A DNA stretch of 64,000 nucleotides from Ramlibacter sp. Its GTDB lineage: Bacteria > Pseudomonadota > Gammaproteobacteria > Burkholderiales > Burkholderiaceae_C. The position numbers and the translations under genes were made by a program. Each line of letters begins with the position of its first letter. Position 1 is the first letter of the stretch. The notes below the pieces were generated by a model. That model was not told the origin of the DNA. It was given only the letters and a program-made list of their open reading frames with translations, and made no database searches. The DNA lies in the NCBI GenBank assembly GCA_029237735.1, contig JAQZBU010000017.1, positions 1 to 64,000 of the forward strand. Reading direction: 5' to 3'. Below, in pieces: positions 1,976 to 37,081 of the stretch.

Positions 1976-2917
1976 ATGCCGCGCGTCGCCCTTATCCAGC
2001 ATCCGCCCGCGTTCCTGGATCGCGCTGCCACGCTCGACCGCGCCGTAACGGCTGTCGATGACGCGGCTCGCGACGGGGCACAGCTCATCGTCTTCCCGGA
2101 AGCCTACGTCTCGGGCTATCCGGCCTGGATCTGGCGGCTGCGCCCCGGCGGAGATATGGCGCTCACCGAGCAGCTGTGTGCGCTGCTGCGCGCCAGCGCC
2201 GTCGATCTGGGGGCTGATGATCTCAGGCCGCTGCGCGAGGCCGCCAAGCGCAATTCAGTCACGATCGTATGCGGCATCAACGAGCGCGACGGCGCGTTCA
2301 GCCGCAGCACGATCTACAACACGGTAGTGATCATCGGAGCCGATGGCACGCTGCAGAACCGCCATCGCAAGGTCATGCCCACCAACCCGGAGCGCATGGT
2401 CTGGGGCTTTGGCGATGCCAGCGGGCTGAAAGCCGTCGACACGCCCGTGGGTCGCGTTGGCGCGCTGATCTGCTGGGAGAATTACATGCCGCTCGCGCGC
2501 TGCGCCATGTATGCGCAGGGGGTCGACATCTACGTCGCGCCCACCTACGACGGTGGCCAGCGCTGGGTCGCTTCGATGCAGCACATCGCGCGCGAAGGAG
2601 GGTGCTGGGTGCTCGGCAGCTGTAGCGCGTTCCAGGCGCGCGACCTGCCCGACACCCTGCCCGGCAAGGCGGCGATGTACCCATCGCCCGATGAGTGGGT
2701 CAATGGCGGCGACTCGGTCATCGTGGCGCCGAGCGGCAAGGTCGTGGCCGGTCCGCTGCACGAGTCAAAGGACACCGTGGTGGCGGATATCGACCTCGCC
2801 GCGGCCGGCACGGCGCGGCGCACCCTCGACGTGGTCGGCCACTATGCGCGGCCGGACCTGTTCCAGTTGCACGTCAACACCCAGCCTTCGCAGCCGGTCA
2901 TCTTCAGCAAGGAGTGA
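1976..2917 (+). CDS. Nitrilase / carbon-nitrogen hydrolase
   Basis: A 313-residue member of the nitrilase superfamily, predicted to hydrolyse a nitrile (or a related amide) to a carboxylic acid and ammonia in the cytosol. The catalytic triad is visible: Glu42 in [12 protein letters not shown], Lys132 in NRHRKVMPT and Cys166 in [13 protein letters not shown]. The WENYMPLAR and GYPAW signatures match true nitrilases (aliphatic/aryl) rather than amidases. The ATG at 1976 follows an AAGGA-type ribosome site. It converges on metY, with stop codons three bases apart. No operon partner on the same strand. The nitrile substrate cannot be inferred from the sequence. Confidence 0.9.
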
Positions 2918-2920
2918 GGC

Positions 2921-4243
2921 TTAGCGAACGGCTTGCCGGAGCGCCTGGTCAATATCCCACAGGATGTCGTCGGCTTCCTCGATGCCCACCGACAGGCGGA
3001 TCATGTCGGGCCGCACGCCGGCGCGCGCGAGTTCTTCCTCGTTCAGCTGGCGGTGCGTGGTGGAGGCCGGGTGGATCACCAGCGTCTTCGCGTCGCCGAT
3101 GTTGGCCAGGTGGCTGAGGAACTCGCAGGCGTCGATGAAGCGCTCGCCAGCCTTCGCCGGGTCAGCGGCCTTGATGCCGAAGGTCAGGATGCCCGAGGCG
3201 CCGGGGCGGCCGTCGATACTGCGGAACTGCTTTTTCGCGAGTTCGTGGTGCGGTGAGTTCGCGAGGCCCGGATAGTTGACCCAGCTCACCAGCGGGTGAT
3301 CGCTGAGGAATTCAGCCACGAGCAACGCGTTGCGGCAATGGGCTTGCATGCGCAGGTGCAGCGTCTCGATGCCTTGCAGAATCAGCCACGCATTCAGCGG
3401 CGAGAGCGAAGCGCCGAAGGTGCGGTTCACCTCCATGCGTGCCTTCATGGTGTAGCCGAAGTCGCCGAAGGTTTCGTAGAACTTCACGCCGTGGTAGGCG
3501 CGGCTGGGTTCCAGCATCTCGGGGAATTTCTGCGCGGCCAGGCCCGAGCCCCAATCGAACTTGCCCGATTCGACGATCACGCCGGCCATCGTCGTGCCGT
3601 GGCCGCCGAGGTACTTGGTGGCGCTGTGCACGACGATGTCAGCGCCGAACACGAACGGGTTGCACAGGTAAGGGCTGGGCACGGTGTTGTCGATGATGAG
3701 CGGCAGGCCGTGCTCGTGCGCGATCTTGGCCACCGGCTCGATGTCGAACACGTTCACCAGCGGGTTGCCCAGCGTTTCGCCGTACACGGCGCGCGTCGTG
3801 GGCCGGATCGCGCGGCGGAAATTCTCCGGGTCTTGCGGGTCGACGAAGGTGGTCTCGATGCCCAGCCGCGAGAAGCCGACGCCGAGCTGGCCGACGCTGC
3901 CGCCATACAACGTGGAGGCGGCGACAATGTGGTCGCCGGTCTTCAGGATCGCGAGCAGTGCGGTCATCTGCGCTGCCATGCCCGTCGCGCACGCGAGCGC
4001 GGCACGGCCGCCTTCGAGCGACGCTACGCGCTCTTCCAGCACCGCGACCGTCGGGTTGCTGATGCGGCTGTACACGTTGCCAAAGGTTTGCAGGTTGAAC
4101 AAGCTCGCGGCGTGCTCGGCCGAATCGAAAACGAAGCTCGTGGTCTGGTGGATCGGCGTCGCGCGCGCGCCGGTCACCGGGTCGGGCACGGCCCCGGCGT
4201 GGATGGCACGGGTGCCGAAGCCATAGTCGCGGTCTTTGGTCAT
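2921..4243 (-). CDS. metY: O-acetylhomoserine sulfhydrylase (PLP-dependent)
   Basis: Cys/Met-metabolism PLP enzyme of 440 residues that makes homocysteine from O-acetylhomoserine and sulfide, direct sulfhydrylation in methionine synthesis. The start GFGTRAIHAG, the THALFEQ-like YSRISNPT region (59-65), Asp185 in the IDNT motif and the Schiff-base Lys210 in HSATKYLGGHG are all present. The length (about 430-440) and the FDWGSGLAAQKFPEM insertion separate it from shorter cystathionine gamma-synthases of the same fold. It lies 13 bp downstream of the CoA-binding protein gene and probably shares its transcript. MetY assignment is strong; activity on O-succinylhomoserine is a less likely alternative. 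Confidence 0.93.
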   Translation of the reverse strand: MTKDRDYGFGTRAIHAGAVPDPVTGARATPIHQTTSFVFDSAEHAASLFNLQTFGNVYSRISNPTVAVLEERVASLEGGRAALACATGMAAQMTALLAILKTGDHIVAASTLYGGSVGQLGVGFSRLGIETTFVDPQDPENFRRAIRPTTRAVYGETLGNPLVNVFDIEPVAKIAHEHGLPLIIDNTVPSPYLCNPFVFGADIVVHSATKYLGGHGTTMAGVIVESGKFDWGSGLAAQKFPEMLEPSRAYHGVKFYETFGDFGYTMKARMEVNRTFGASLSPLNAWLILQGIETLHLRMQAHCRNALLVAEFLSDHPLVSWVNYPGLANSPHHELAKKQFRSIDGRPGASGILTFGIKAADPAKAGERFIDACEFLSHLANIGDAKTLVIHPASTTHRQLNEEELARAGVRPDMIRLSVGIEEADDILWDIDQALRQAVR

Positions 4244-4256
4244 GAGAAGTTCGAGT

Positions 4257-4748
4257 TCAGTAGGGCAGGTGTTGCGGCCTGCGCGCGGAGATCACGCGCG
4301 TGTTAACGCCGGCCCAGTTCAAGCCGCCGAAGAGCCGCGCATGCTCGATCTTCACGCAGCGGTCCATCACGACGTCGAGCCCCGCGGCGCGCGCCTTGGC
4401 CGCTGCGGGCTCGTTGACAACGCCGATCTGCATCCACAGGCACTTGGCGCCGATGGCGATGGCCTCGTCGGCGATGGGCGGGATGTCCTCGCTCTTGCGA
4501 AAGCAATCGACCATGTCGATCTTCAGGCCTTCAGCGGCCAGTGCCGCGGCGGCGGCCGTCACGCTCGGGTAGCAGCGCTGGCCGAGGATATCGGTGGCCG
4601 TGGGGTTGACCGGCACGACGCGATAGCCGTGTCCCTGCATGTACTTGGCCGCGAAAAAACTGGGCCTGTGCCATTGCGGCGACAGGCCCACGACGGCGAT
4701 GGTCTTGCAGGTGCCGAGGATGCGGCGCAGGGTGGCAATGTCGGTCAT
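4257..4748 (-). CDS. CoA-binding domain protein (YccU family)
   Basis: A 163-residue single-domain Rossmann protein of the CoA_binding_2 family, related to the N-terminal CoA-binding domain of succinyl-CoA synthetase alpha. The nucleotide-binding start TIAVVGLSP (about 15-23), VPVNPTATDILG, MVDCFRKSEDIPPI and the C-terminal CVKIEHARL are typical. Biochemical role is not established for the family. The ATG at 4748 is used because the longer frame would begin inside a palindromic repeat element. It stands directly upstream of metY with a 13-bp gap, so co-transcription is likely. Confidence 0.88.
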   Translation of the reverse strand: MTDIATLRRILGTCKTIAVVGLSPQWHRPSFFAAKYMQGHGYRVVPVNPTATDILGQRCYPSVTAAAAALAAEGLKIDMVDCFRKSEDIPPIADEAIAIGAKCLWMQIGVVNEPAAAKARAAGLDVVMDRCVKIEHARLFGGLNWAGVNTRVISARRPQHLPY

Positions 4749-4772
4749 GCCGCCAGTGTACGCATCCCACCC

Positions 4773-4847
4773 TGTCATTGCGGGCTCGACCGGCAATCCA
4801 CCTCGCGTCGGTCGAGACATGGATCCCGGATCAAGTCCGGGATGACA
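4773..4847. repeat. Imperfect palindromic intergenic element, relative of the 1853-1918 element
   Basis: The right arm (4821-4847, ending in CCGGGATGACA) shares the GGATCAAGTCCGG core with the element at 1853-1918. The left arm (4773-4799, TGTCATTGCGGGCTCGACC) pairs with it only imperfectly. The element sits between the starts/ends of two minus-strand genes (CoA-binding protein and redoxin). Confidence 0.7.
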
Positions 4848-9651: not shown

Positions 9652-10647
9652 GTGGGACTCGCCGCTACACCGCAATCTGTGGGAACCTTCCTGAACCACG
9701 TCAACGTCTTGCTGGCGCTCGTCGTCCTTGCCGGCATGTTCGCCGGCTGGCGCAGAGGCTTCGTACTGGGGACGCTGGGGCTTGCGGTGCTCATCGCCGC
9801 CTTGTTACTGGCGTTCCTGGGCTACCAGTATCCGGCGCATTGGCTCGAGCAGAGCCGCTTTGTCGCGAGCCCGTGGGCGCTGCCGGCCGCGTTCCTCGGA
9901 ACCTTCGTCGCCGTGCGGATCTTGCTGGGCGTCGTCGCGAATCGCCTCCTGGCTGCCGTCCCGCACGACGCCCACGTGCACACAGCTAACCGTGCGTTCG
10001 GCGTGCTGCCGGGCTTCGTCAACGGGCTTTTGAACGCGATGATCGTGTCCATGTTGCTGTTGGCCGTGCCGCTGTTCGGCGCGCTGACGCAGCAGACGCG
10101 CGACAGCGTCATCGCGACTCGCCTCGCCGTGCCGGCGGAATGGATTGAGTCTCGGCTCTCGCCGATCTTCGAGGAAGCCGTGAGCAGGACCATGAACCGG
10201 ATGGTCGTGAAGCCCGGCTCGCGGGAACGCATCCCGCTACCCTTTACCGTTTCGAACCCGGCGCCGCGACCCGACCTCGAAGCGCAGATGTTGCACCTGA
10301 TCAATCAGGAGCGCGCGGCGGCGGGCCTGGGCCCATTGCGCGTCGATCCGGAGCTGGCGGAAGTGGCACGCTCGCACTCGCGCGACATGTTCGCGCGCGG
10401 CTATTTCTCGCACATCGCTCCTGACGGCAAGGACCCATTCGACCGCATCCGGCAGGCGCAGGTGCGCTTTCTCACCGCGGGCGAGAATCTCGCACTCGCG
10501 CCGACGCTGCGTCAGGCGCACGAAGGTCTGATGAACTCACCCGGCCATCGCGCCAACATTCTTCGGCCTGCGTTCGGCCGGGTTGGCATTGGCATTGTCG
10601 ACGGCGGGATGCGCGGGCAGATGGTGACGCAGAACTTCCGCAATTAG
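9652..10647 (+). CDS. CvpA-like membrane domain fused to a CAP (SCP/PR1) domain
   Basis: A 331-residue two-part protein. Residues 18-145 hold four hydrophobic segments of CvpA/colicin V production type (LLALVVLAGMFAGWRRGFVLG opens the domain). Residues 208-331 are an extracytoplasmic CAP domain with LINQERAAAGLGPLRVDPELAEVARSHS, the candidate cavity residues His242, Glu278 (AGENL) and His299 (SPGHRANIL), and the C-terminal VTQNF. The start is a GTG at 9652; no good ATG exists. It lies 36 bp after the sugar dehydrogenase and may share its transcript. Function is unknown; the fusion places a CAP domain on the outer face of the inner membrane. Confidence 0.82.
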   Translation: MGLAATPQSVGTFLNHVNVLLALVVLAGMFAGWRRGFVLGTLGLAVLIAALLLAFLGYQYPAHWLEQSRFVASPWALPAAFLGTFVAVRILLGVVANRLLAAVPHDAHVHTANRAFGVLPGFVNGLLNAMIVSMLLLAVPLFGALTQQTRDSVIATRLAVPAEWIESRLSPIFEEAVSRTMNRMVVKPGSRERIPLPFTVSNPAPRPDLEAQMLHLINQERAAAGLGPLRVDPELAEVARSHSRDMFARGYFSHIAPDGKDPFDRIRQAQVRFLTAGENLALAPTLRQAHEGLMNSPGHRANILRPAFGRVGIGIVDGGMRGQMVTQNFRN

Positions 10648-10658
10648 CCGGCGTGCGC

Positions 10659-11543
10659 TCAAGGCTCCGGAGGCGCGCCCTTGAATGGGTTGAACCCCGT
10701 CACCAGCGCCATCGCGGCCAGTACCAGCAGGCAGCCGGGCAGCATGCCCGCCGTCACCGGCTCGTCGAGGAACAGGCCGCCCCAGGTCACACCGAACAGG
10801 GGAATCATGAAGGCCGGCGATGTGGCAGCGCTGGCAGGGATCTCGCGCATGAGTCGCATGCTGAGCCAATACATGAAGCCGGAAGTCACCATGCCAAGTA
10901 CGGCCACGGACAGCATCGCGCCGGTGGTGGGCCGCATGGATGGCGCTGTCGCCGCCATCGGCAGCAGCAACAGGAGCGTGGCCGCCACGTGCACGGCGGC
11001 CGAGGCGGGCAGCGGCCCGTGGGCGAGCGTGGCTCGCTTCATCAGGATCGCGCCCAGGCCGTAGCAACAGGAAGCGGCGACGCAGGCCAGCGCGGCCACC
11101 ACCACCTTCGCATCCACCGCGATCGGCCCGAGCCGCACCAGCAGCGCGACGCCGGTGAAGCCGAGCGCGCAGCCCGCGAGCCGGCGCGCCGTCAGGCGCT
11201 CCTCGCCAATCGCCGCGGCCCCCATGATGCCGAACAGCGGCGCCGTCGCATTCAGCACGGCGGAGTAGCCGGCCGGCAGCACCAGTCCGGCCCAGTTGAA
11301 CAGTACGAAGGGTGCCACCACCGTAAGCAGGCTGAGCACCGTCACGCGGCGCCACGTCGCTTTGCCGGGCCACTGCTGGCGTAGCGCGCGCATGAGCACC
11401 GCCAGCACCAGCGCGGCGAGAACGCAGCGGATGCCTGCCAAGCCCAGCGGTCCGAAGGCGGGGCTGGCCACGCGGATGAGCGGGAACGACGCGCCCCACA
11501 GCGCGGACAGGAAAATCAGTTGAAGAAAGTGACGCGTTCGCAT
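10659..11543 (-). CDS. DMT-superfamily (EamA) transporter
   Basis: A 294-residue inner-membrane protein with two EamA repeats and about ten hydrophobic helices. The opening LSALWGASFPLIRVA and the mid-protein repeat LACVAASCCYGLGAILMKRAT are the family signatures, and the second repeat ends with LFLDEPVTAGMLPGCLLVLAAMAL. Probably a metabolite or amino-acid exporter; substrate cannot be told from sequence. It converges with the CvpA-CAP gene (stops 11 bp apart) and is divergent from the aldo/keto reductase across 105 bp. Confidence 0.85.
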   Translation of the reverse strand: MRTRHFLQLIFLSALWGASFPLIRVASPAFGPLGLAGIRCVLAALVLAVLMRALRQQWPGKATWRRVTVLSLLTVVAPFVLFNWAGLVLPAGYSAVLNATAPLFGIMGAAAIGEERLTARRLAGCALGFTGVALLVRLGPIAVDAKVVVAALACVAASCCYGLGAILMKRATLAHGPLPASAAVHVAATLLLLLPMAATAPSMRPTTGAMLSVAVLGMVTSGFMYWLSMRLMREIPASAATSPAFMIPLFGVTWGGLFLDEPVTAGMLPGCLLVLAAMALVTGFNPFKGAPPEP

Positions 11544-28045: not shown

Positions 28046-28948
28046 TCACGCAATCGTCTGGGCGCGATCCCAGGCCAGCAGATGGTGCAGGTAAGGCAAC
28101 TGCTGCAGGGCGGCCTGCTCACCCTCATCGATGATGTAGGCTAATTTGTCCGAAAGGAACCGCCCCGCCCGTTGCCTGAATTCGGGAAAGACGATGATCA
28201 TCTCGGCGTGATGAGCCGCACCGTGAAAGGCGAGCTTGGCGCGCAGCAGGTTGTTGGAGAGGATCGCGTTCAGCTGGAACGCTGTACGTCCGGCGCGCTC
28301 GACTCGCTGCTGGAGCGGTAGCTCGAATCCAACAGCAACGATGACGCGCGCGCCGTGCTTGATCGCAACGCTCACTGGCAGCGGATCGGCCAGGTAGCCT
28401 TCGACCAGAAGCCGCTCACCCACGCGCTGCGGCGCCATGGCCGGCGGCAACGACAGGCTAGCACGTAGGCCCCCCACCAAAGGGCCTGTGGCCAGCTCAA
28501 CCAATTCACCCGTCGCGAAGTCGGTGGCGGTCAGGTGCAGCGGCAGCAATGCCGCTTCAATGCATTTGTTTCCGAACGCCGCAGTCAGGTGCTGCAACGG
28601 GACGCGATCGTCTCGGAGTCCGAACCCGGGGGCCGCCCTGGACCTGAAAAGGCGCGGGGCTACTGCGTGAAGCATCCCAAACATGCTTCGGCGCGCGGCG
28701 AGTTCACGCGTCCACAGACGCATCGCCACCGCTTTCGACTCATCGATCGTGTAGCCGAAAGCGACAAGCGCGGCGAACACGGCACCCGCGCTACAGCCAA
28801 CGACGCGCTCGACGCCAATGCCGGCATCGGCCAGCGCCTTGACCACTCCCAATGCCGCGGCGCATCTGGCGCCGCCCGAGCCAATGACCAGTGTGATCTT
28901 GGGCGAGTCGGGGCCGGTGGGCCCAGAGGCGGGGAGGGGTGCAGGCAT
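28046..28948 (-). CDS. Patatin-like phospholipase A (copy A, substituted catalytic Asp)
   Basis: A 300-residue patatin-fold protein. The oxyanion loop is GSGGARCAAALG and the nucleophile elbow GCSAGAV contains Ser53. The second dyad residue is normally Asp in a DG motif; here the aligned segment is RLLVEGYLADPLPV with Glu183-Gly184. Its paralogue at 33979 has the expected DG. The ATG at 28948 gives the shortest sensible N-terminus; a longer frame covers the STAS gene. Encoded 13 bp after the STAS copy A gene. Lipid-hydrolase activity is therefore uncertain; it may be a regulatory, non-hydrolytic copy. Confidence 0.85.
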   Translation of the reverse strand: MPAPLPASGPTGPDSPKITLVIGSGGARCAAALGVVKALADAGIGVERVVGCSAGAVFAALVAFGYTIDESKAVAMRLWTRELAARRSMFGMLHAVAPRLFRSRAAPGFGLRDDRVPLQHLTAAFGNKCIEAALLPLHLTATDFATGELVELATGPLVGGLRASLSLPPAMAPQRVGERLLVEGYLADPLPVSVAIKHGARVIVAVGFELPLQQRVERAGRTAFQLNAILSNNLLRAKLAFHGAAHHAEMIIVFPEFRQRAGRFLSDKLAYIIDEGEQAALQQLPYLHHLLAWDRAQTIA

Positions 28949-28961
28949 CGCGTGAAACCGT

Positions 28962-29300
28962 TCAGTTTCGGTAACTGGCGACCGCGGCCTCGACATCGGC
29001 GAATATCTGGATGATCCCGGTGAAGCCCGCCAGCGCCAGCACGCGCTCGACCTGGGGCTGCAGTCCGGCGATGCGCAGGTCTCCACCCTTGCGGCGACTG
29101 TCGTTGACGGCGCCCAGCAGAGAGCGCAGGCCGGCGCTGCTGGTGTAGTTGACGAGGGAGAAGTCGGCCACCAGGCGCACGCGGCCCCCGGCGATCGGCT
29201 CCGCGATGCTGGCGCTCAGTTGCCCGGCGTTCAGCCCGTCGACGCTGCCGGTGATCTTGACGACCGTGGCGTTATCGCATTCGGTTAGGGTGACTTCCAC
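28962..29300 (-). CDS. STAS-domain anti-anti-sigma-like protein (copy A)
   Basis: A 112-residue RsbV/SpoIIAA-like STAS domain protein. Start is GTG at 29300, with a GGAGG site six bases before it, and the length then equals that of copy B (113). It shares the pattern NYTSSAGLRSLL, which holds the phosphorylatable serine (Ser54/Ser55), with copy B's VSYTSSAGLRAML, and ends IQIFADVEAAVASY versus LKVFADVDGAVASY. In partner switching such proteins bind the kinase/anti-sigma when dephosphorylated. First gene of a two-gene unit with patatin copy A. Confidence 0.85.
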   Translation of the reverse strand: MEVTLTECDNATVVKITGSVDGLNAGQLSASIAEPIAGGRVRLVADFSLVNYTSSAGLRSLLGAVNDSRRKGGDLRIAGLQPQVERVLALAGFTGIIQIFADVEAAVASYRN

Positions 29301-29407
29301 TCGGGACCTCCGTAGGAAAGAATCTGGCGATGCCGGCGCCGCTTTGTGACAGGCGGCTTCGCCGCTACACTGCGGCTCTCTGCTTTTCCAGCGTGACCGC
29401 CGCGCCG

Positions 29408-29914
29408 ATGCTCGACAAATCCCTGCCCGCCGTGTTCGTCCGCCGCGCCCGCCCGGAAGACGAGCAATGCATGCGCGGCTTCGTGCAGCAATTGAGCGGC
29501 GCGTCGCGGCGCAACCGCTTCCACGGCGCCGTGAGCGCGGATGCACCGCAGCTGCTGGAAGCCCTGCTCGGCACCGTCGGCGAGCTCCACGCTGCCTGGG
29601 TGGCCTGCATCTGGGGCCCCAACGGCGAGCAGATCGTAGGCGAGGGCGGCTGGCACGTGATCGATGAGAAGCAGCGCCGTGCCGAGCTGGGCGTGAGTGT
29701 GCTCGACACTTGGCAGGGCGCGGGCGTGGCGCACGTCTTGATGGCCAAGCTGATCGACGGCGCGCGCGACGCCGGCGTGCGCGAGCTCTACGGCGACGTC
29801 CTTGAAACGAACGCGCGCATGGTCGCTTTCATGGAAAAGCACGGCATGCAGCCGAGCGCGGACTGGCCCTGGGATTCGGGCGGCGCGGTTCGCATGGAGC
29901 GGAAGCTGTCCTGA
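29408..29914 (+). CDS. GNAT-family N-acetyltransferase
   Basis: A 168-residue acetyltransferase. The acetyl-CoA-binding pattern is in LGVSVLDTWQGAGVAHVLMAKLIDGARDAGVRELYGDVLETNARMVAFMEKHGM; the Q/R-x-x-G-x-G/A turn is QGAGVA. Similar in layout to the C-terminal GNAT domains of protein acetyltransferases of the Pat type, but it stands alone. Start is ATG 29408. It sits between the two patatin-STAS modules on the opposite strand and its stop is 8 bp from the kinase gene end. Confidence 0.82.
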   Translation: MLDKSLPAVFVRRARPEDEQCMRGFVQQLSGASRRNRFHGAVSADAPQLLEALLGTVGELHAAWVACIWGPNGEQIVGEGGWHVIDEKQRRAELGVSVLDTWQGAGVAHVLMAKLIDGARDAGVRELYGDVLETNARMVAFMEKHGMQPSADWPWDSGGAVRMERKLS

Positions 29915-29921
29915 TCGCATG

Positions 29922-31334
29922 TCAGGCCACCGGCGAAACGGTGGCTGGATCCGACGCGCTGGACTGGCGTCCCGGTGAAGTCCCTGCCGCGGCGGCGGTG
30001 CGGGCGTCGAGCGGCAAGCGCACCGTGAAGGTGCTGCCTCGCTCCGGTTGGCTGGACACCGCGATATCGCCGCCCATCATTTGCGCGAAATGCTTGCTGA
30101 TGGTCAAGCCCAGCCCGGTGCCGCCGTACTTTCGCGTGGTGGAGGCGTCCGCCTGGGTGAAGGGCTGGAACAGGCGCTCCAGCTGTTCATCGCTCATTCC
30201 GATGCCGGAGTCATGCACGGCCAGTATCACCTCGTCCTTGACGGCCTCGAGCGCCACGCTGACGGTGATGGTTCCGCGCTCAGTGAACTTGCAGGCGTTG
30301 GAAAGAAGGTTCAACAGGATCTGGCGTAGCTTGGTCTGGTCGGTGTGCATCCCGATCGGGTCCTGGGCAATCTGAAGTTCGAGCCGATTCCCGTTGGCGG
30401 CAATGACGGGTGCGAGGCTGTCGGCCACCCCGCTTAGCATGGGCTTGAGCTCGAAGCTCTCGAGGAACAGGTCCATCTTGCCCGCCTCGATTTTCGACAG
30501 ATCCAGGATCTCGTTGATCAGCGAAAGAAGGTGCTTGCCCGAGCCGCGAATGCGCTCGAGATCCTGCACGAAGTCTTCGCGCCCGATGTCTTCCGCCTGC
30601 TCGGCCAGCATTTCCGAATAGCCGATGATCGCGTTCAGGGGCGTGCGTAACTCATGGCTCATGTTGGCAAGGAACTGCGACTTGGTCTGGTTCGCCGCCT
30701 CGGCAATTTCCTTGGCTTCGTTCAGCTCGCGGCCGCGCTGTTCCAGCAGCAGGCTTTTTTCGAGGATTTCGGCGTTCTGCTGTCGAGTCTGCCGGATCCC
30801 GTGCACCACCCGCTTCGACTGTGCGTACGAGAGATAGGCGAAAGTCAGCATGTAGCAGACCAACATGGCGCTGCTCAGCAGTGAAACGCTCAGGCTGGAG
30901 TTGGGCTGGACATGGAAGCCGGCGGCGCTGGCCGACAGCAGCATCCCGAAAAGCATCAGCGCGACACCGCGTACTGCATGCATCGGCCCGCCGACGCTCA
31001 GCAGACCACCGACGAGGCCGACAACGATGGCCGTGCTGGGCAATATGCTGAAATGCAGTACGGGCACCCAGGCCCCGATCATCAAGGCGTCGATCAAGAG
31101 GTTGCGCAGCTCGGTCGCCTTGGGAGTCTTGCTGCGCCGCGCCACGAAGTAGGCGATGTGTGGCCAAACCAAGGCATATGCCACAAGCATGGCCAGCAAT
31201 GGCGCAGTGAGGCCAGCCTGGTATAGGTGCAACACGACCACCAGCAAGAAGCCCGGGAAAGTCACCACACGCGTCACGAAATCGATGCGTACGATCGGAT
31301 GGAGCGCGGGCGGGGGCGAGGCGATCTGGTTCAC
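29922..31334 (-). CDS. MASE2-type membrane histidine kinase
   Basis: A 470-residue hybrid-less sensor kinase. The N-terminus (about 20-175) is a MASE2-like membrane sensor with several helices, including [37 protein letters not shown] coiled linker leads to a HisKA domain with His227 in [22 protein letters not shown], then a HATPase with [38 protein letters not shown]. The start is GTG, overlapping the preceding gene by four bases (GTGA), typical of translational coupling. Last gene of the seven-gene operon; no own receiver domain, so it must phosphorylate a separate regulator. Confidence 0.92.
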
Positions 31335-32767
31335 GATGCGGACTCCGGCAGTGGCGCCCGCGCCAGCGGCAGCGCGGCGGTGAAGACGGTGCCGACGTTC
31401 AGGGTGCTCTCCACGCTGAGGCTTCCTCCCAGCATTTCGCAGTAGCGCTTGGTCAGCGTCAGACCCAGGGCCGCCCCGCCGTGCTTGCGCGTGCTGGAGC
31501 CGTCGGCCTGGGTGAATGGCTGGAAGAGCCGCGCGAGGTGTTCGCCGCTCATGCCGATGCCGGTGTCGCTGACGCGAAAGAGCAGGCTCTTGCTATCCTT
31601 CGAAGGCTGCACGTCCAGTTGCACGACCCCTGCCTCCGTGAACTTGAGCCCGTTCCCGAGCAGGTTCATCAGGACCTGCCGCAGCTTCACCGGGTCGGTG
31701 ACCATCAGGCCGACCTGGGGCGCGCAATGGACTTCCAGTGTGTTGCCGTTCTTGCGAGCCAGTCCAGACAGGCCGACCGCGGCTTCCTGGGCGAGGGTGG
31801 GCACGTCGACCTCTTCCAGGGTGATATTCGTCTTGCCGGCTTCCAGCCGCGCGAGTTCGAGCACCTCATTGATCAGGCTCAGCAGGTGCTGCCCGGCCGT
31901 CCTGATCTTTCCCAGGTCGGCCTGGCGCGTCTCGGTGTCAGTGTCCGGCTCTTCGATCAGCATCTCCGCATAGCCGATCACGGCGTTCAGCGGCGTCTTG
32001 AGCTCGTGGCTCATGTTGGCGAGAAACTGCGATTTGGCCACGCTCGCGGCCTCGGCTTCCTCCTTGGCGCGGGCGAGTTGCGTGGACCGCTCCTGCAGCT
32101 GCTGGATCGAGTCGCGTGCGAGCCTCACCGCCGCATTGGAACGATCGCGCAGTTTCTGGGCGTTGAGACCGCTCATGAGGATATACAAGCCGGACAGGTA
32201 GAGGAGCAACGTGATTGCCAGCGCACGGGGCCAGTCCACCGCCACCGCGTCTACTCCCGCCTGGTAGACCAGCATCGTCACATAGCACAGCGGCGCGAGG
32301 TGCGCGAACACCGCCGCGCGGCGAAAGCTCACGAAGCTCTGGTCGGCCACCCGAAGCGCGAGCAGGAAGAACAGCCAGCTGGTGTGACCGCCCGAGACGT
32401 ACACGGCGCCGGTCCAGAGCAGAAGATCGGTCGTGAAGAACAGCAGGCCCAGGTCCATGACCTTGACGCGATCGAACCATCGGGCCAGGGCCCACCACGA
32501 GCCCACGCAGTAGAGTTCCGCGATCACGGCATAGGTGACCATCGGCGGCCAGGCTGCAGCGCCCTTCGTTATCAGCAGGTTGTGGCCGACCATCACGATG
32601 ATCATCAGCTGGAAGCCGACCAGCCTCACCAGCGGAAAGGTGATCACGTTCATGTCGCGCCGCCGGCGCGCGGTCTGGCGCGCGGCTTCCTTGGGATCGA
32701 CCAGGATCCGCTGGTCCAGCGGCGGCCCAGTGCGGGCCGCGCCGCTCCACGGAGCGCCCTCGGTCAT
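31331..32767 (-). CDS. Second membrane histidine kinase of the cluster
   Basis: A 478-residue sensor kinase with about six helices between residues 42 and 200, no recognised sensory domain name, a coiled linker and a HisKA domain with His254 in [22 protein letters not shown]. The HATPase has [13 protein letters not shown] and DTGIGM, but the G2 box, normally GGTGLGL, reads GGAALGL. The start at 32767 gives a 22-bp gap after the SpoIIE-phosphatase gene. A longer frame would overlap it. The two kinases are clear paralogues and adjacent. Confidence 0.9.
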
Positions 32768-32789
32768 GAAGCGTTTCAGCCGGCCCGCG

Positions 32790-33977
32790 CTATTCACGGC
32801 GCACCGCCAGCAGGGTGATGTCGTCAAAGTGGGGGCCGTCCTGCACGTAGTCGGCGAGTGCCGACTCGATGCGGTCCAGCATTGCCGCCGCGGTCGTGTT
32901 CGAGTGCGGGTCCAACAGCGCCAAGAGGCGGGGCTCGCCGAACATCTGCGCGTCGATGCCGCGCGCATCGGTCACGCCATCGGTGAACGCAAGCAGCATC
33001 GCCCCCGGTTCGAGCACGGTGGAAGCGGCCCGGAACGCGAGTCCGGCCTGCAAGCCAACTGCCGGGCCGCTGGGAGCGAGCCGTCGCGGCGTTTGCGAAC
33101 CGGGTTCCAGCAGGACGGGCGGATCGTGGCCGGCATTGACGTAGTGCATGGCACCGGTCGACGGCGTCAGCACGGCGAAAAAAACCGTCGCGAACATGTT
33201 CGCCCTGCTGTGCGTCTGGGCGATGTAGTCGTTGATGCTCGCGAGCGTTCGCACGAGGACCGCCGTCGGCTCCGATTCGGTGCAGTTCTGCGCGGCCAGT
33301 ACCCGCAGGAGGCTGCGGAACAGCGCCATGAACAGGGCCGCGCCCACCCCCTTGTCGCAGACATCCGCAACCACCAGGCCGAGCCGCCCGTCGGGCAACT
33401 CGAACGCATCGTAGAAATCGCCGGCGACCTGACGGGCAGGCTGGAACCGCGCCGCCAGTTCCCAACCCGCGACTGACGGCAGGTTTTCGGGCAGGAAGCT
33501 GCGCTGGATGTCGCGCCCGATCGCGAGTTCGCGCTCCAGGCTCTTGGCATAGACCTGCTCGCGGTCGCGCAGGCGCTTCTTGGCCAGCGCCGAGTCGACG
33601 CGGGCGCGCAGGATCGCCGGATTGAACGGCTTGGGCAGGTGATCCTCCGCACCCATCTCGATACAGCGGGCGATGCTTTCAACATCGTCCACGGCCGTGA
33701 TCATGATGACGGGGATGTGGCAAAGCGCCGGGTCCGCCTTGAGCTTCTCCAGCAGGTCATAGCCGTTCATCACGGGCATCATGATGTCCAGCAGGATCAG
33801 GTCGAACGGCTGCGCCATGATCGACTCGAGCGCCTGCTGCCCGTTCTCCGCCAGGTCCACGTGGAACCCCTGGCGCTGCAGCCGGCGGGACAGCATGTCC
33901 CGGTTCATCTCATTGTCATCGACGACCAGCAGGCGATGCTGCGGGCCGTTGGGCGTGACGGTCAGGGGCCCGTCCAA
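32790..33977 (-). CDS. Receiver-SpoIIE phosphatase (RsbU/RsbP-like)
   Basis: A 395-residue regulator. The N-terminal receiver domain (about 14-135) has acidic residues VVDDNEMNRD, the phospho-acceptor Asp64 in LILLDIMMPVMNG and Lys in HLPKPFN. A coiled linker leads to a PP2C-type SpoIIE domain with metal ligands in AGDFYD (Asp187), VADVCDKG (Asp205/Asp208) and HFDDIT near residue 385. It should dephosphorylate a STAS protein when its receiver is phosphorylated. Start is TTG at 33977, one base after the patatin stop, with no clear ATG. Downstream kinases may phosphorylate it. Confidence 0.9.
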   Translation of the reverse strand: MDGPLTVTPNGPQHRLLVVDDNEMNRDMLSRRLQRQGFHVDLAENGQQALESIMAQPFDLILLDIMMPVMNGYDLLEKLKADPALCHIPVIMITAVDDVESIARCIEMGAEDHLPKPFNPAILRARVDSALAKKRLRDREQVYAKSLERELAIGRDIQRSFLPENLPSVAGWELAARFQPARQVAGDFYDAFELPDGRLGLVVADVCDKGVGAALFMALFRSLLRVLAAQNCTESEPTAVLVRTLASINDYIAQTHSRANMFATVFFAVLTPSTGAMHYVNAGHDPPVLLEPGSQTPRRLAPSGPAVGLQAGLAFRAASTVLEPGAMLLAFTDGVTDARGIDAQMFGEPRLLALLDPHSNTTAAAMLDRIESALADYVQDGPHFDDITLLAVRRE

Positions 33978-33978
33978 T

Positions 33979-34854
33979 TCAGGCAGCCTGCGCCGCGGCG
34001 CGGTCTTCCAGCAATCTGTGCAGGTAGGGCAGCTGGACCTCCGCGGCGCGCGCCCCCTCCTCGATCACGTAGGGGATCAGGTGTGTGTCGAACAGTCGCA
34101 CCGGCCGATCGAAATCCGGCATGATCGGAATGATCTCGGTGTGGTGGGCCAGGTTGTTGAAGGCGAAGTTGGCGCGCAGCAGGTTGTTGGTGTACACGCT
34201 GGTCACGTGAAAGGCATAGCGCGAGGCAGAGCGTATCTGGTTGGGGTACGGGCTCTCGAAGCCCATGGTCAGGATGATGTCCGCCCCCTCCTGCATCGCC
34301 ACGCCCACCGGCATAGGATCCGAAACGCAGCCGTCCAGCAGGCGCCGCCCGCCGATCTCCACGGGCAGCCAGACGTAAGGGATGGCGGTGCTGGCTCGTA
34401 TGGATTCGGCGATGCTGCCTTCTTTCAGCACGACACGCTCGCCATTCATCAGGTCGGTGGCCACGATGAACAGCGGCAGCTTGGTGTCGGCGAACGTCAC
34501 GTCACCGAAGCCACGGCGAAGAGCGCGTTTGATCGGCCCGTCATCGAGCATCGCAAAGCCGCCGTCGAAGCCAAACAACTTCGGCATGAATGCACTCAGG
34601 AGACCCTTCCAGTTGGTCTTGCTGCTGATCTCCGACGTCCAGAGTTTCTGGGTGAGCGCGGTGCTTTCGTCGACGGTGTGGCCGATCGCCATGCTGGCCG
34701 CGTAGATGCTGCCGCCGCTGGCCCCGACTACCATGTCCAGTTCGATCCCCTCGCGTTGCAGGACCCTCCACAGCCCGAGCGCGGCGGCGCATTTCACGCT
34801 GCCGGCGCCGATCACGAGCGCCACGCGTTTTTTTTGCCCTGTCTTGTTGGTCAT
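33979..34854 (-). CDS. Patatin-like phospholipase (copy B, intact dyad)
   Basis: A 291-residue patatin-fold hydrolase. The oxyanion loop is GAGSVKCAAALG, the nucleophile Ser46 in GASGGSI, and the catalytic Asp174 in LLDGCVSDPMPVG. It is paralogous to copy A: both share KCAAALG/RCAAALG, TNNLLRA/SNNLLRAK, and the shared C-terminal blocks LPYLHRLL/LPYLHHLL. Predicted cytosolic lipid acyl hydrolase. Start is ATG 34854 with AGGA upstream; the STAS gene ends 22 bp before. In the middle of the seven-gene operon. Confidence 0.88.
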   Translation of the reverse strand: MTNKTGQKKRVALVIGAGSVKCAAALGLWRVLQREGIELDMVVGASGGSIYAASMAIGHTVDESTALTQKLWTSEISSKTNWKGLLSAFMPKLFGFDGGFAMLDDGPIKRALRRGFGDVTFADTKLPLFIVATDLMNGERVVLKEGSIAESIRASTAIPYVWLPVEIGGRRLLDGCVSDPMPVGVAMQEGADIILTMGFESPYPNQIRSASRYAFHVTSVYTNNLLRANFAFNNLAHHTEIIPIMPDFDRPVRLFDTHLIPYVIEEGARAAEVQLPYLHRLLEDRAAAQAA

Positions 34855-34876
34855 TGCGGGTCCTGGGATGAGATGT

Positions 34877-35218
34877 TCAGGCCGAATAGCTAGCGACCGC
34901 GCCATCGACGTCGGCAAAGACCTTCAGGATGCTGGTAAAGCCACTCAGCTCCAGGATTTTCAGGACCGGCGCATGCACGGCCGCCAGGCGCAGGTCGCCT
35001 CCGCCGCTGCGAGCTTCACGCAGCACGGCAAGCATGGCGCGCAGGCCCGCGCTGCTGGTGTAGCTCACGCCGGACAGGTCAGCGACGAGGCGAACGTGGC
35101 CTTCGCCTACGCGTGCCTGCAGCTCCTTCAGCAGCGTCTCGGCCGTGAGCCCGTCCACATTACCGATGATTCGCACGACCGTGGCGGCCGCGCGGTATTC
35201 AACTTGTATCTCCAGCAT
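34877..35218 (-). CDS. STAS-domain anti-anti-sigma-like protein (copy B)
   Basis: A 113-residue RsbV-like STAS domain protein with VSYTSSAGLRAMLAVLREARSGGGDLRLA; Ser55/Ser56 is the predicted phosphorylation site for the RsbW-like kinase encoded directly upstream. Paralogue of copy A. The RsbW-like gene start is 11 bases upstream of this gene's ATG; the patatin gene follows 22 bases after its stop. Confidence 0.9.
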   Translation of the reverse strand: MLEIQVEYRAAATVVRIIGNVDGLTAETLLKELQARVGEGHVRLVADLSGVSYTSSAGLRAMLAVLREARSGGGDLRLAAVHAPVLKILELSGFTSILKVFADVDGAVASYSA

Positions 35219-35228
35219 TCCAATCCTC

Positions 35229-35648
35229 TCATTCGCTTTTCAGGTGCGTCCGTAGCCGCTTGATCAACTCCAGCCGATTGCCCCCGCCTGCAATCGGTTC
35301 GTGCCTGACTTCATCCATCATCTGGCGTATCAGGTGCCAACCCAGTCCACCTTCGCGCCGGCTCTGCCAATCCGACGTCAGGTCCGGCGGCGGCGCGTCC
35401 TCAGGCGAAAAAAGAGGAGCGCGATCCTCGATCCGGATGACAACCTGGGCGCTGTCGCAGCGCACCTCCAGCGATATCGGCCCGGGGTCCACGCCGGCAT
35501 AGGCGTGATTGATGATGTTTGTGCATGCCTCTTCGCCCGCGAGCCGCACCGCGAAGGCGGCTTCATCGTCAAGCCCGGCTTCCTTGCAAGTATCGTCCAG
35601 GAAGGCCAGCAACGTCCCGAGGCTGGAGGGTATCGCCAGGCAGCTCAT
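35229..35648 (-). CDS. RsbW-like serine kinase / anti-sigma ATPase
   Basis: A 139-residue GHKL ATPase of the RsbW/SpoIIAB class. The N-box is GEEACTNIINHAYAG (Glu39, Asn44), the G1 box IEDRAPLFSP with Asp75 and the glycine-lid EGGLGWHLIRQMMDE. It should phosphorylate the neighbouring STAS protein and may bind a target such as a sigma factor. ATG at 35648 is chosen as it aligns with the family start; a GTG at 35690 would overlap the regulator gene. No sigma factor is encoded in the operon. Confidence 0.88.
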   Translation of the reverse strand: MSCLAIPSSLGTLLAFLDDTCKEAGLDDEAAFAVRLAGEEACTNIINHAYAGVDPGPISLEVRCDSAQVVIRIEDRAPLFSPEDAPPPDLTSDWQSRREGGLGWHLIRQMMDEVRHEPIAGGGNRLELIKRLRTHLKSE

Positions 35649-35662
35649 TTGCCTGGAAAGCT

Positions 35663-36040
35663 TCAACGCTTGTCCGCCCGCCCGAGACACTGCTCGATTT
35701 TTCCGAGCAGTCGGTCGAGCTCGATGGGTTTGGTGTCGAAATCGTCGCAGCCCGCATCCACCGCGCGCTGCCTGTCGCCCGACATGGCGTGCGCCGTCAG
35801 CGCGATGATCGGGATCTTTCGTGTGGCTTCGTCGAACTTGAGCTGGCGTGTGGCTTCCCAGCCGTCGATGACTGGCAGGCTCATGTCCATGAGAACCAGG
35901 TCGGGGCTGCGCTCACGCGCTGCGGCCAGGCCCTCGGCTCCGTCCGTAGCGATCAGGATGTCATAGCCACGCCGCTGCAGGCGCCGCGACAGCATGTCGC
36001 GATTCATCTCGTTGTCTTCGACGATCAGAATGGTGGGCAC
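35663..36040 (-). CDS. Single-domain response regulator
   Basis: A receiver-only protein of about 125 residues, CheY-like. Acidic pocket IVEDNEMNRD, phospho-acceptor Asp52 in LVLMDMSLPVIDG, switch Thr in IALTAH and Lys in DTKPIEL. Its EDNEMNRDMLSRRLQRRGYD is nearly identical to the start of the receiver in the SpoIIE phosphatase. The start is uncertain: GTG at 36040 fits the domain edge, a TTG at 36097 would add 19 residues. First gene of the operon; may act as phosphate sink or target for the two kinases. Confidence 0.85.
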   Translation of the reverse strand: MPTILIVEDNEMNRDMLSRRLQRRGYDILIATDGAEGLAAARERSPDLVLMDMSLPVIDGWEATRQLKFDEATRKIPIIALTAHAMSGDRQRAVDAGCDDFDTKPIELDRLLGKIEQCLGRADKR

Positions 36041-36249
36041 GGTGGGAACTGTGTAGGGGGTCGAGGGGAATGTACAGTTGAAACAGGAAAGCTGCAACGG
36101 CTCTTGAGTTCAAGGGCCCCGGTTGCTCAGCCGGTACGGCTGGTCGAGGCAATTCACAAGCCACTGACGCCAACAGGTAGAAGTGCCTATGCGATGCAAA
36201 TGCGTGGCAGCCACAGTACGATGCCCTTCGCCCACAACAGGAGGTCCGG

Positions 36250-36571: not shown

Positions 36572-37081
36572 TCAGTCGCCTGGCGGCCTCAACGCCACAT
36601 GGCGCCGCCAGGGCAGGCGCGCATCCGCTTCGTAGTCCGCGACCACCCAGGTTCGCGTCGGGTGGTCTGCCATGTCGTAGAGAAACTCGCGGATGACGCG
36701 GGCGGACGCGGCGTCGAGCGCGGCGAACGGCTGGTCGAGGCAGGTTGCGGTGGCACCGCTTGCGAGCAAGCCCACCAGGGCAATCTTGCGTCGGCTGCCG
36801 GTGGAGAGCATGAACAGCTTCTTGCCAAGATGGGGATGAAGATGCAGCGCCTCGATGAGGTCCTGCTGCAACTGCGTGTTCCAGTGCGGGCATCGCAACT
36901 TCAATGAATCCCACACCTGCTCGGGGGTCTGGTCATCATGGCCGGGCAGGGACAGATCAAGCCACAGGGCAAAGGAATTTTCGCCGAGGCGGCGCAACAA
37001 GGTGGTCTTACCCACACCTTCGTCGCCTGTTACGGCGACGAGGCCTGGTGGAAGGGGGAGCAGATCGGCGAGAGACGTCAT
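36572..37081 (-). CDS. Small ABC-type ATP-binding protein
   Basis: A 169-residue P-loop ATPase, shorter than a usual ABC ATPase (about 230). Walker A GDEGVGKTT (residues 19-27), a degenerate signature LSTGSRRK instead of LSGGQ, and Walker B ATCLDQPFAALD. No membrane partner is encoded adjacent on this strand; the AzlCD exporter lies divergently. ATG at 37081 is preferred; a longer frame begins MPINRDP. Its role is unknown. Confidence 0.65.
   Translation of the reverse strand: MTSLADLLPLPPGLVAVTGDEGVGKTTLLRRLGENSFALWLDLSLPGHDDQTPEQVWDSLKLRCPHWNTQLQQDLIEALHLHPHLGKKLFMLSTGSRRKIALVGLLASGATATCLDQPFAALDAASARVIREFLYDMADHPTRTWVVADYEADARLPWRRHVALRPPGD

Follow-up and report, generated by a model that had tools for sequence, protein, structure and literature searches.

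Freeing a sigma factor is the textbook role of a partner switch. In a 64,000-nucleotide stretch of Ramlibacter sp. DNA (assembly GCA_029237735.1, contig JAQZBU010000017.1, positions 1 to 64,000; hereafter the window), the genes of such a switch form an operon in which the STAS gene is followed by a gene for a patatin-like lipase. The minus-strand run from 36040 to 29922 encodes a single-domain receiver (REC), an RsbW-type serine kinase, an RsbV/SpoIIAA-type STAS protein (STAS1), a patatin (PAT1), a receiver-SpoIIE phosphatase and two membrane histidine kinases (HK1 and HK2), with adjacent genes 1-22 bp apart or slightly overlapping. The gaps are 10 bp between RsbW and STAS1, 22 bp between STAS1 and PAT1 and 1 bp between PAT1 and the receiver-SpoIIE gene, and HK1 and HK2 overlap in the sequence GTGA. 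The operon is real. Beyond it lie a GNAT acetyltransferase gene on the plus strand and a second STAS-patatin pair (STAS2 and PAT2).

Genes of the two STAS-patatin units of the window, with Pfam matches (bit scores and E values where given)
Feature	Coordinates	Strand	Length (amino acids)	Evidence and remarks
Receiver (REC), single-domain	36040-35663	minus	125	Response_reg 95 bits, 3.4e-27
RsbW-type serine kinase (HATPase_c_2)	35690-35229	minus	153 (from GTG)	99 bits, 1.9e-28
STAS1, RsbV/SpoIIAA-type	35218-34877	minus	113	STAS 64 bits, 1.3e-17
PAT1, patatin-like lipase, type A	34854-33979	minus	291	Patatin 101 bits, 1.4e-28
Receiver-SpoIIE (PP2C) phosphatase	33977-32790	minus	395	Response_reg 107 bits; SpoIIE 164 bits, 6.9e-48
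HK1, membrane histidine kinase	32797-31331	minus	488	HisKA 1.3e-20; HATPase_c 3.4e-25
HK2, MASE2-domain histidine kinase	31334-29922	minus	470	MASE2 2.4e-21; HisKA 2.3e-22; HATPase_c 4.8e-33
GNAT acetyltransferase	29408-29914	plus		Acetyltransf_1 9.6e-11; between the two STAS-patatin units
STAS2	29300-28962	minus	112	STAS 1.4e-18; GGAGGT ahead of the gene
PAT2, second patatin, type A	28948-28046	minus		Patatin 9.3e-23

An initial annotation of this DNA had described one tight operon from 28046 to 36097. The genes that it named are all present, with Pfam domains over cut-off, and the tight run holds from REC through HK2, but the plus-strand GNAT gene had been omitted and STAS2-PAT2 is a separate pair beyond it. 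We placed the start of REC by choice at the GTG at 36040, position 36097 being a TTG farther upstream, and the RsbW-type gene has an alternative in-frame TTG start at 35666. The two kinases, which had been called paralogous, are indeed alike in their kinase parts, with the ATP-lid motif reading GGAALGL in HK1 and GGTGLGL in HK2, but their membrane parts differ: that of HK2 is a MASE2 domain, while that of HK1 gives a PilS-like match to six transmembrane segments below the Pfam threshold. The annotated absence of a sigma factor was borne out for the whole contig that carries the window (C203), on which none is encoded with the RsbV- and RsbW-type genes or elsewhere; Sigma70_r2 has 15 matches in the genome, 14 of them over cut-off, and all lie on other contigs. 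A scan for promoters and terminators was uninformative (one promoter-like sequence vs 1.1 expected, seven terminator-like sequences vs 5.7 expected).

Judged by their sequences, the switch proteins comprise an RsbW-type kinase with an intact N-box, a single-domain STAS protein with its serine and a SpoIIE phosphatase with its aspartates. Residues Ser55 and Ser56 of STAS (motif YTSSAGL) are invariant in all 62 aligned rows, as are N-box residues Glu54 and Asn58 of RsbW in all 64 rows, the window being included in both counts and RsbT-like members in the latter. The metal-binding Asp motifs of the PP2C domain are complete in the window protein and kept in nearly all relatives. STAS1 also exceeds the cut-off of 53 for NCBIfam TIGR00377 (ant_ant_sig) with 69 bits, the best PDB sequence match of the RsbW-type protein is RsbW (6m36, E 1.1e-7), and the receiver-SpoIIE protein matches 3eq2 across residues 15-338. 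PAT1 combines the patatin fold with the serine of the GxSxG motif and the aspartate of the DG motif, its dyad consisting of the nucleophile Ser46 (GASGG) and Asp174 (DGC), and no signal peptide is evident by eye. A fold search with its AlphaFold2 (AF2) model (mean predicted local distance difference test [pLDDT] score 93, predicted template-modelling [pTM] score 0.91) returned PlpD (5fya, E 5.7e-18) as the best match and the CapE/CapV phospholipases next.

Conservation of the STAS-patatin gene pair, a check that had been proposed for Burkholderiales genomes, was confirmed and reaches wider than that order. With five aligned STAS-linked patatins as the query, a scan of genome_contigs yielded 67 loci (designated by L numbers), whose phyla were assigned from record titles and tree labels. 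A STAS gene lies directly upstream of the first patatin in 54 of them (31 Proteobacteria, 14 Chloroflexi, 4 Gemmatimonadetes, 2 Acidobacteria, 2 spirochaetes and 1 unassigned), and the distance between STAS and patatin ranges from -16 to 131 bp when measured from domain envelope to domain envelope. Within 7 kb of the patatin, an RsbW domain is found in 54 loci, a SpoIIE domain in 53, a histidine kinase in 37, a receiver domain, alone or in a receiver-SpoIIE protein, in 38 (a stand-alone receiver gene in 32) and a GNAT gene in 9, and 36 loci hold more than one patatin. Distant members may be missed because the neighbouring STAS, RsbW, SpoIIE and histidine kinase genes were scored with the window proteins alone as queries, and many loci stop early at contig ends. 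Chance linkage is rejected, as the same gene order occurs in a sister Ramlibacter and the module is found again in other phyla. By contrast, a related patatin clade (L029-L046) shows a STAS match in 0 of its 18 loci. PAT1 has five matches within the genome of the window, only PAT1 itself and PAT2 being strong (next best E 2.5e-19), and no STAS gene occurs within the 1.5-kb flanks of the three other patatin loci.

The 13 loci that lack a directly upstream STAS gene include two at contig ends (L057, L113) and one whose patatin is distant (L112). Elsewhere, the STAS gene stands about 1.3-1.6 kb from the patatin with RsbW in between (L065-L067) or is part of an RsbW-STAS fusion on the opposite strand, adjoining the operon (L072, L076). 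At L107, which is the same as L028, an NTE-type patatin with a cyclic-nucleotide (cNMP)-binding domain (2395-4797) separates STAS from the module patatin. The Ser-Asp dyad is intact in 97 of 104 module patatins. A cysteine follows the oxyanion-hole Lys/Arg in all 104, a count that is partly built in since one of the two scan patterns demanded that residue; the corresponding residue is serine in 18 of 18 members of a related clade that lacks STAS (L029-L046) and glycine in RssA.

The evolutionary distances point to STAS as the closest partner of the patatin. Mirror-tree values were computed as partial correlations of pairwise distances among patatin (PAT), STAS (V), RsbW (W) and SpoIIE (U), the two remaining proteins being partialled out in each case, for 48 of the 65 loci L047-L111 (all four proteins were required, and L079 was left out, its patatin being identical to that of L078) and for a second set of 31 loci with one contiguous operon. 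The 48 loci gave PAT-V 0.51, V-W 0.33, W-U 0.33, PAT-W 0.25, V-U 0.23 and PAT-U -0.08, and the 31 contiguous operons gave W-U 0.58, PAT-V 0.56, V-W 0.31, PAT-U 0.20, V-U 0.11 and PAT-W 0.04, with little change on omitting any single locus from the latter. In both sets the distances of the patatin agree better with those of STAS than with those of RsbW or SpoIIE, although common descent and co-transfer of adjacent genes act as confounders, and the 500 permutations that were run provide no true p-value, PAT-W too lying above all 500 in the 48-locus set. The correlations are consistent with a putative order U-W-V-PAT, even though the patatin gene adjoins the SpoIIE gene in these operons.

The same parts could be wired differently, with RsbW rather than STAS binding and inhibiting PAT1 and unphosphorylated STAS releasing it, which would put the patatin in the seat of a sigma factor. 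The gene set resembles RsbV-RsbW-sigma operons, RsbW is present in 54 of the 67 loci, and none of the 500 permutations reached the PAT-W value of the larger set. We nevertheless regard this wiring as unlikely: PAT-W is close to zero in the contiguous operons, where PAT-V stands at 0.56, and six loci have STAS and patatin without RsbW (L052, L088, L096, L097, L107, L108), whereas RsbW occurs without STAS in none of the 67.

Sigma factors were sought up to 9 kb on each side of the loci with those of the window's own genome as queries, some of the open reading frames (ORFs) used being antisense. Sigma-like ORFs were found in only 4 of the 67 loci (L050, L063 weakly, L088 and L100), 3.6-7.4 kb past the last patatin domain, and in none of the 67 do they fall between module genes. 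This distribution argues against an ordinary switch for an unlinked sigma factor in which the patatin makes no direct contact and its gene is co-transcribed as a target or accessory, as do the retention of the patatin across phyla with unlike input genes and its tracking of STAS. Such an arrangement would agree with the best-studied RsbW/STAS systems, which control sigma factors, and the 14 Sigma70_r2 genes over cut-off elsewhere in the genome offer unlinked targets on which RsbW could act; overall, we judge it improbable.

Inputs vary between lineages, and STAS beside patatin is the retained part. The usual input in Proteobacteria, Gemmatimonadetes and Acidobacteria consists of a histidine kinase, a receiver and a receiver-SpoIIE protein, with MASE2 confirmed by Pfam in HK2 of the window and in L048 and L081. 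A single large protein unites SpoIIE and RsbW in eight Chloroflexi loci (L053, L054, L055, L060, L061, L073, L084, L110) and in two from spirochaetes (L104, L109); at L061 it is one chain of seven transmembrane segments (7TM), PAS, GAF, SpoIIE and RsbW. The SpoIIE protein of L050 carries a cNMP-binding domain, and L065-L068 and L083 hold additional STAS and HATPase genes that we take to be stressosome-like. Fusions of histidine kinase to RsbW (L105), receiver to RsbW (L077, L089), RsbW to STAS (L072, L076, L106) and SpoIIE to RsbW tie the signalling parts together. The membrane sensors of the checked modules (the MASE2 proteins and the 7TM protein of L061) would suit a patatin that serves as an upstream or feedback element, remodelling the membrane sensed by the kinases while the switch has its output elsewhere. 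This arrangement appears very unlikely, however, as the patatin is kept too in loci with the cNMP-SpoIIE protein or with stressosome-like genes.

We therefore favour, as a reading with a reasonable probability of being correct, a partner switch that works without a sigma factor and controls a cytoplasmic patatin lipase. A membrane stimulus would alter HK1/HK2, which would hand phosphoryl groups on to the receiver and the receiver-SpoIIE protein. The phosphorylation of STAS at Ser55 or Ser56 would depend on the balance between the SpoIIE phosphatase and the RsbW-type kinase that works against it, and STAS would, by its phosphorylation state, either sit on RsbW or be free to bind PAT1. Its binding would change the activity of the lipase, presumably toward phospholipids, or its access to the membrane, and the sign that we favour is activation of the patatin by unphosphorylated STAS. 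With a patatin in the place of the sigma factor, the signal probably acts on lipids directly. A sigma-free switch with two-component input and patatin output had been proposed in the initial annotation, and it finds partial support in the conserved gene pair, in the tracking of STAS by the patatin and in the nearest relatives that the two proteins share (see below). Of the two patatins of the window, one (PAT2) is probably no active enzyme.

Several observations weigh against a STAS-gated patatin, in addition to the confounded distance values and the unlinked sigma factors described above. The patatins of L063, L090, L091 and L099 have no STAS, RsbW or SpoIIE gene in the available DNA. The STAS-less clade L029-L046, in which none of the 18 loci has a STAS match, nests on a long branch inside the type A patatins in the patatin tree, indicating that the family can work without STAS. 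No natural STAS-patatin fusion is present among the ORFs of the 67 loci, 7 of the 104 module patatins lack one dyad residue, and the module is rare. Finally, the sigma-like ORF of L088 is on the same strand as the patatin-FHA-ABC gene and 2.0 kb past it, with one ORF between, at a locus that has neither RsbW nor SpoIIE. This L088 gene (8294-11755, in an Anaerolineaceae metagenome-assembled genome [MAG]) fuses a type B patatin to FHA domains and an ABC-2 transporter.

With the SigB and SigF switches (RsbU-RsbV-RsbW and SpoIIE-SpoIIAA-SpoIIAB), the module has in common an RsbW-type kinase, a STAS protein with invariant serines and a SpoIIE-type PP2C phosphatase, and the nearest solved structures of the window kinase and STAS include RsbW (6m36), SpoIIAB (1til) and SpoIIAA (1th8). 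Unlike those switches, the window module has no sigma factor, and a patatin follows the STAS gene instead. To our knowledge, few direct enzyme outputs of partner switches are known, HsbA-HsbD being the example. HsbA is a STAS protein. According to a study of Pseudomonas aeruginosa, phosphorylated HsbA binds the diguanylate cyclase HsbD (PMC6482189), which makes HsbA-HsbD of the HptB-HsbR-HsbA-HsbD system a precedent for an enzyme output, although HsbR has phosphatase and kinase domains in one chain and the output there is cyclic di-GMP.

Known patatin systems resemble the module in part. In E. coli, the patatin gene rssA stands in one locus beside rssB, which encodes a receiver protein, but that locus shows no STAS or RsbW gene. 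RssA is the nearest named NCBIfam for the window patatins, and RssB_Pseudo is among the best for the receiver-SpoIIE protein; the scores lie far below the respective cut-offs of 272 (NF007623; PAT1 61.7 and PAT2 68.1 bits) and 700 (RssB of Pseudomonas, NF045505; 108.6 bits). CapV and CapE of cyclic-oligonucleotide-based antiphage signalling systems (CBASS) have the same fold as the PAT1 model and are likewise patatins turned on by a signal, but solved CapE/CapV are bound to cyclic dinucleotides, and no cyclase is found among the ten window proteins scanned. PAT1 scores 20.7 bits against the CBASS phospholipase family (NF041079, cut-off 200). A defence system was rejected, matches from PADLOC and from CBASS/NCBIfam models being weak and partial. 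PlpD of P. aeruginosa matches the patatin domain best in both sequence and fold; it is a secreted lipase of the autotransporter type, whereas the window patatins are stand-alone patatin domains.

No description of a patatin-linked partner switch was found in the open-licence literature, and the accessible text of a review of STAS-only proteins (PMC8256260) does not contain the words 'lipase', 'enzyme', 'diguanylate' or 'HsbD'. The module is a genuine and conserved partner-switching variant, undescribed within the literature searched, whose effector is likely the patatin. If so, partner switching would extend to direct post-translational control of lipids, and a coherent group of bacterial patatins that are so far unassigned could be given a function. 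The module also bears on why E. coli keeps rssA beside rssB.

The window appears to combine two modules of different descent. The nearest relative found, a Ramlibacter MAG (L047), has the same gene order, with similarity spanning from the ORF at 36590-36970 through PAT2. PAT1 (93.1% identity) and REC (93%) are the most conserved proteins, each with dN/dS 0.09; for PAT2, identity drops to 72% and dN/dS is 0.18. The patatin tree holds 126 of 133 rows, leaving out four rows of L027/L028 that repeat L105/L107 and three distant or partial patatins; alignment A2 holds 83 of 103 trimmed relatives and both window patatins. In the tree, PAT1 falls in a group with Luteimonas and Gemmatimonadetes (5 rows, support 99/89) and PAT2 in one with Comamonadaceae (11 rows, 100/97). 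After L047, STAS1 is nearest to L049, L058 and L048, and STAS2 to the Comamonadaceae loci L094 and L093, then L102, although support for the branching beyond L047 is not strong; the closest relatives of each STAS are also those of the patatin with which it is paired. The window RsbW is nearest to L111, L049 and L058, and the window SpoIIE to L059, L058 and L049. Taken together, these relationships suggest that the window holds a complete module that was acquired and, beside it, a pair of native type.

The STAS2-PAT2 pair resembles what is left of a second module, of Comamonadaceae type, after loss of its own RsbW and SpoIIE. It may share the kinase and phosphatase of the first module, PAT2 then serving as a decoy or as a partner without catalysis. 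The GNAT gene belongs with the Comamonadaceae version of the module, following the SpoIIE gene in L092, L095, L098, L101, L102 and L106 and lying upstream and divergent in L093 and L094. A GNAT gene also stands just upstream of the patatin ORF, or overlaps it, in 8 of the 18 loci of the STAS-less clade L029-L046, echoing that of the window.

In PAT2, the catalytic aspartate is replaced by glutamate (LLVEGY), while the PAT2 of L047 has lost a different catalytic residue, serine having become glycine. PAT2 is probably a pseudoenzyme under continued purifying selection, although an active enzyme that uses the glutamate is an alternative to be kept in mind. Pseudo-patatins seem to have arisen more than once: besides the two Ramlibacter copies, patatins without the serine occur in Chloroflexi at L083 and in one clade formed by L060, L090, L091 and L099. 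Such proteins may act as regulatory partners of active patatins. At L060 (8103-11559), four tandem patatin genes follow STAS, and the first lacks the nucleophile serine.

The module is rare and patchy. With PAT1 as query, 20 of 250 genomes in a sample of the family match at 1e-30 (the window's own genome included), and of the 19 others two (G155 and G083) have a STAS-linked patatin. At 1e-40, 5 of 300 genomes in a sample of the order match, again including the window's own, and three of the others do so at module-grade scores. At 1e-85, the only match among 398 genomes sampled from the phylum is the window's own, and 4 of 199 match in the class of an Anaerolineales genome (G908), itself included. 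Of the hits retrieved for the order and the class, L155 (G349) carries a full module and lies outside the named set; L154, L156, L157 and L158 are the same loci as L086, L111, L065 and L068, respectively, and L159 stops at a contig end. A plasmid-borne module was rejected, all 118 plasmid records being below 60% identity, as was a viral origin, since viral_contigs contain no close relative of PAT1 (the single-protein query reaches close relatives only). On balance, the loci point to a widespread but patchy class of horizontally moving partner switches, in which a membrane-lipid hydrolase is the dedicated effector, sensors are interchangeable and pseudo-patatins are possibly regulatory, an interpretation that we hold to be slightly more probable than its negation.

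Two minor features of the RsbW-less loci may be recorded. Directly after the STAS-patatin pair of L097 lies an ATP-grasp gene (9900-10901, Dala_Dala_lig_C), and L108 has an ORF of similar size at this place. L096 and L108 come from MAG records titled Bordetella parapertussis; their patatins group with that of a betaproteobacterial MAG, and the species label is probably wrong.

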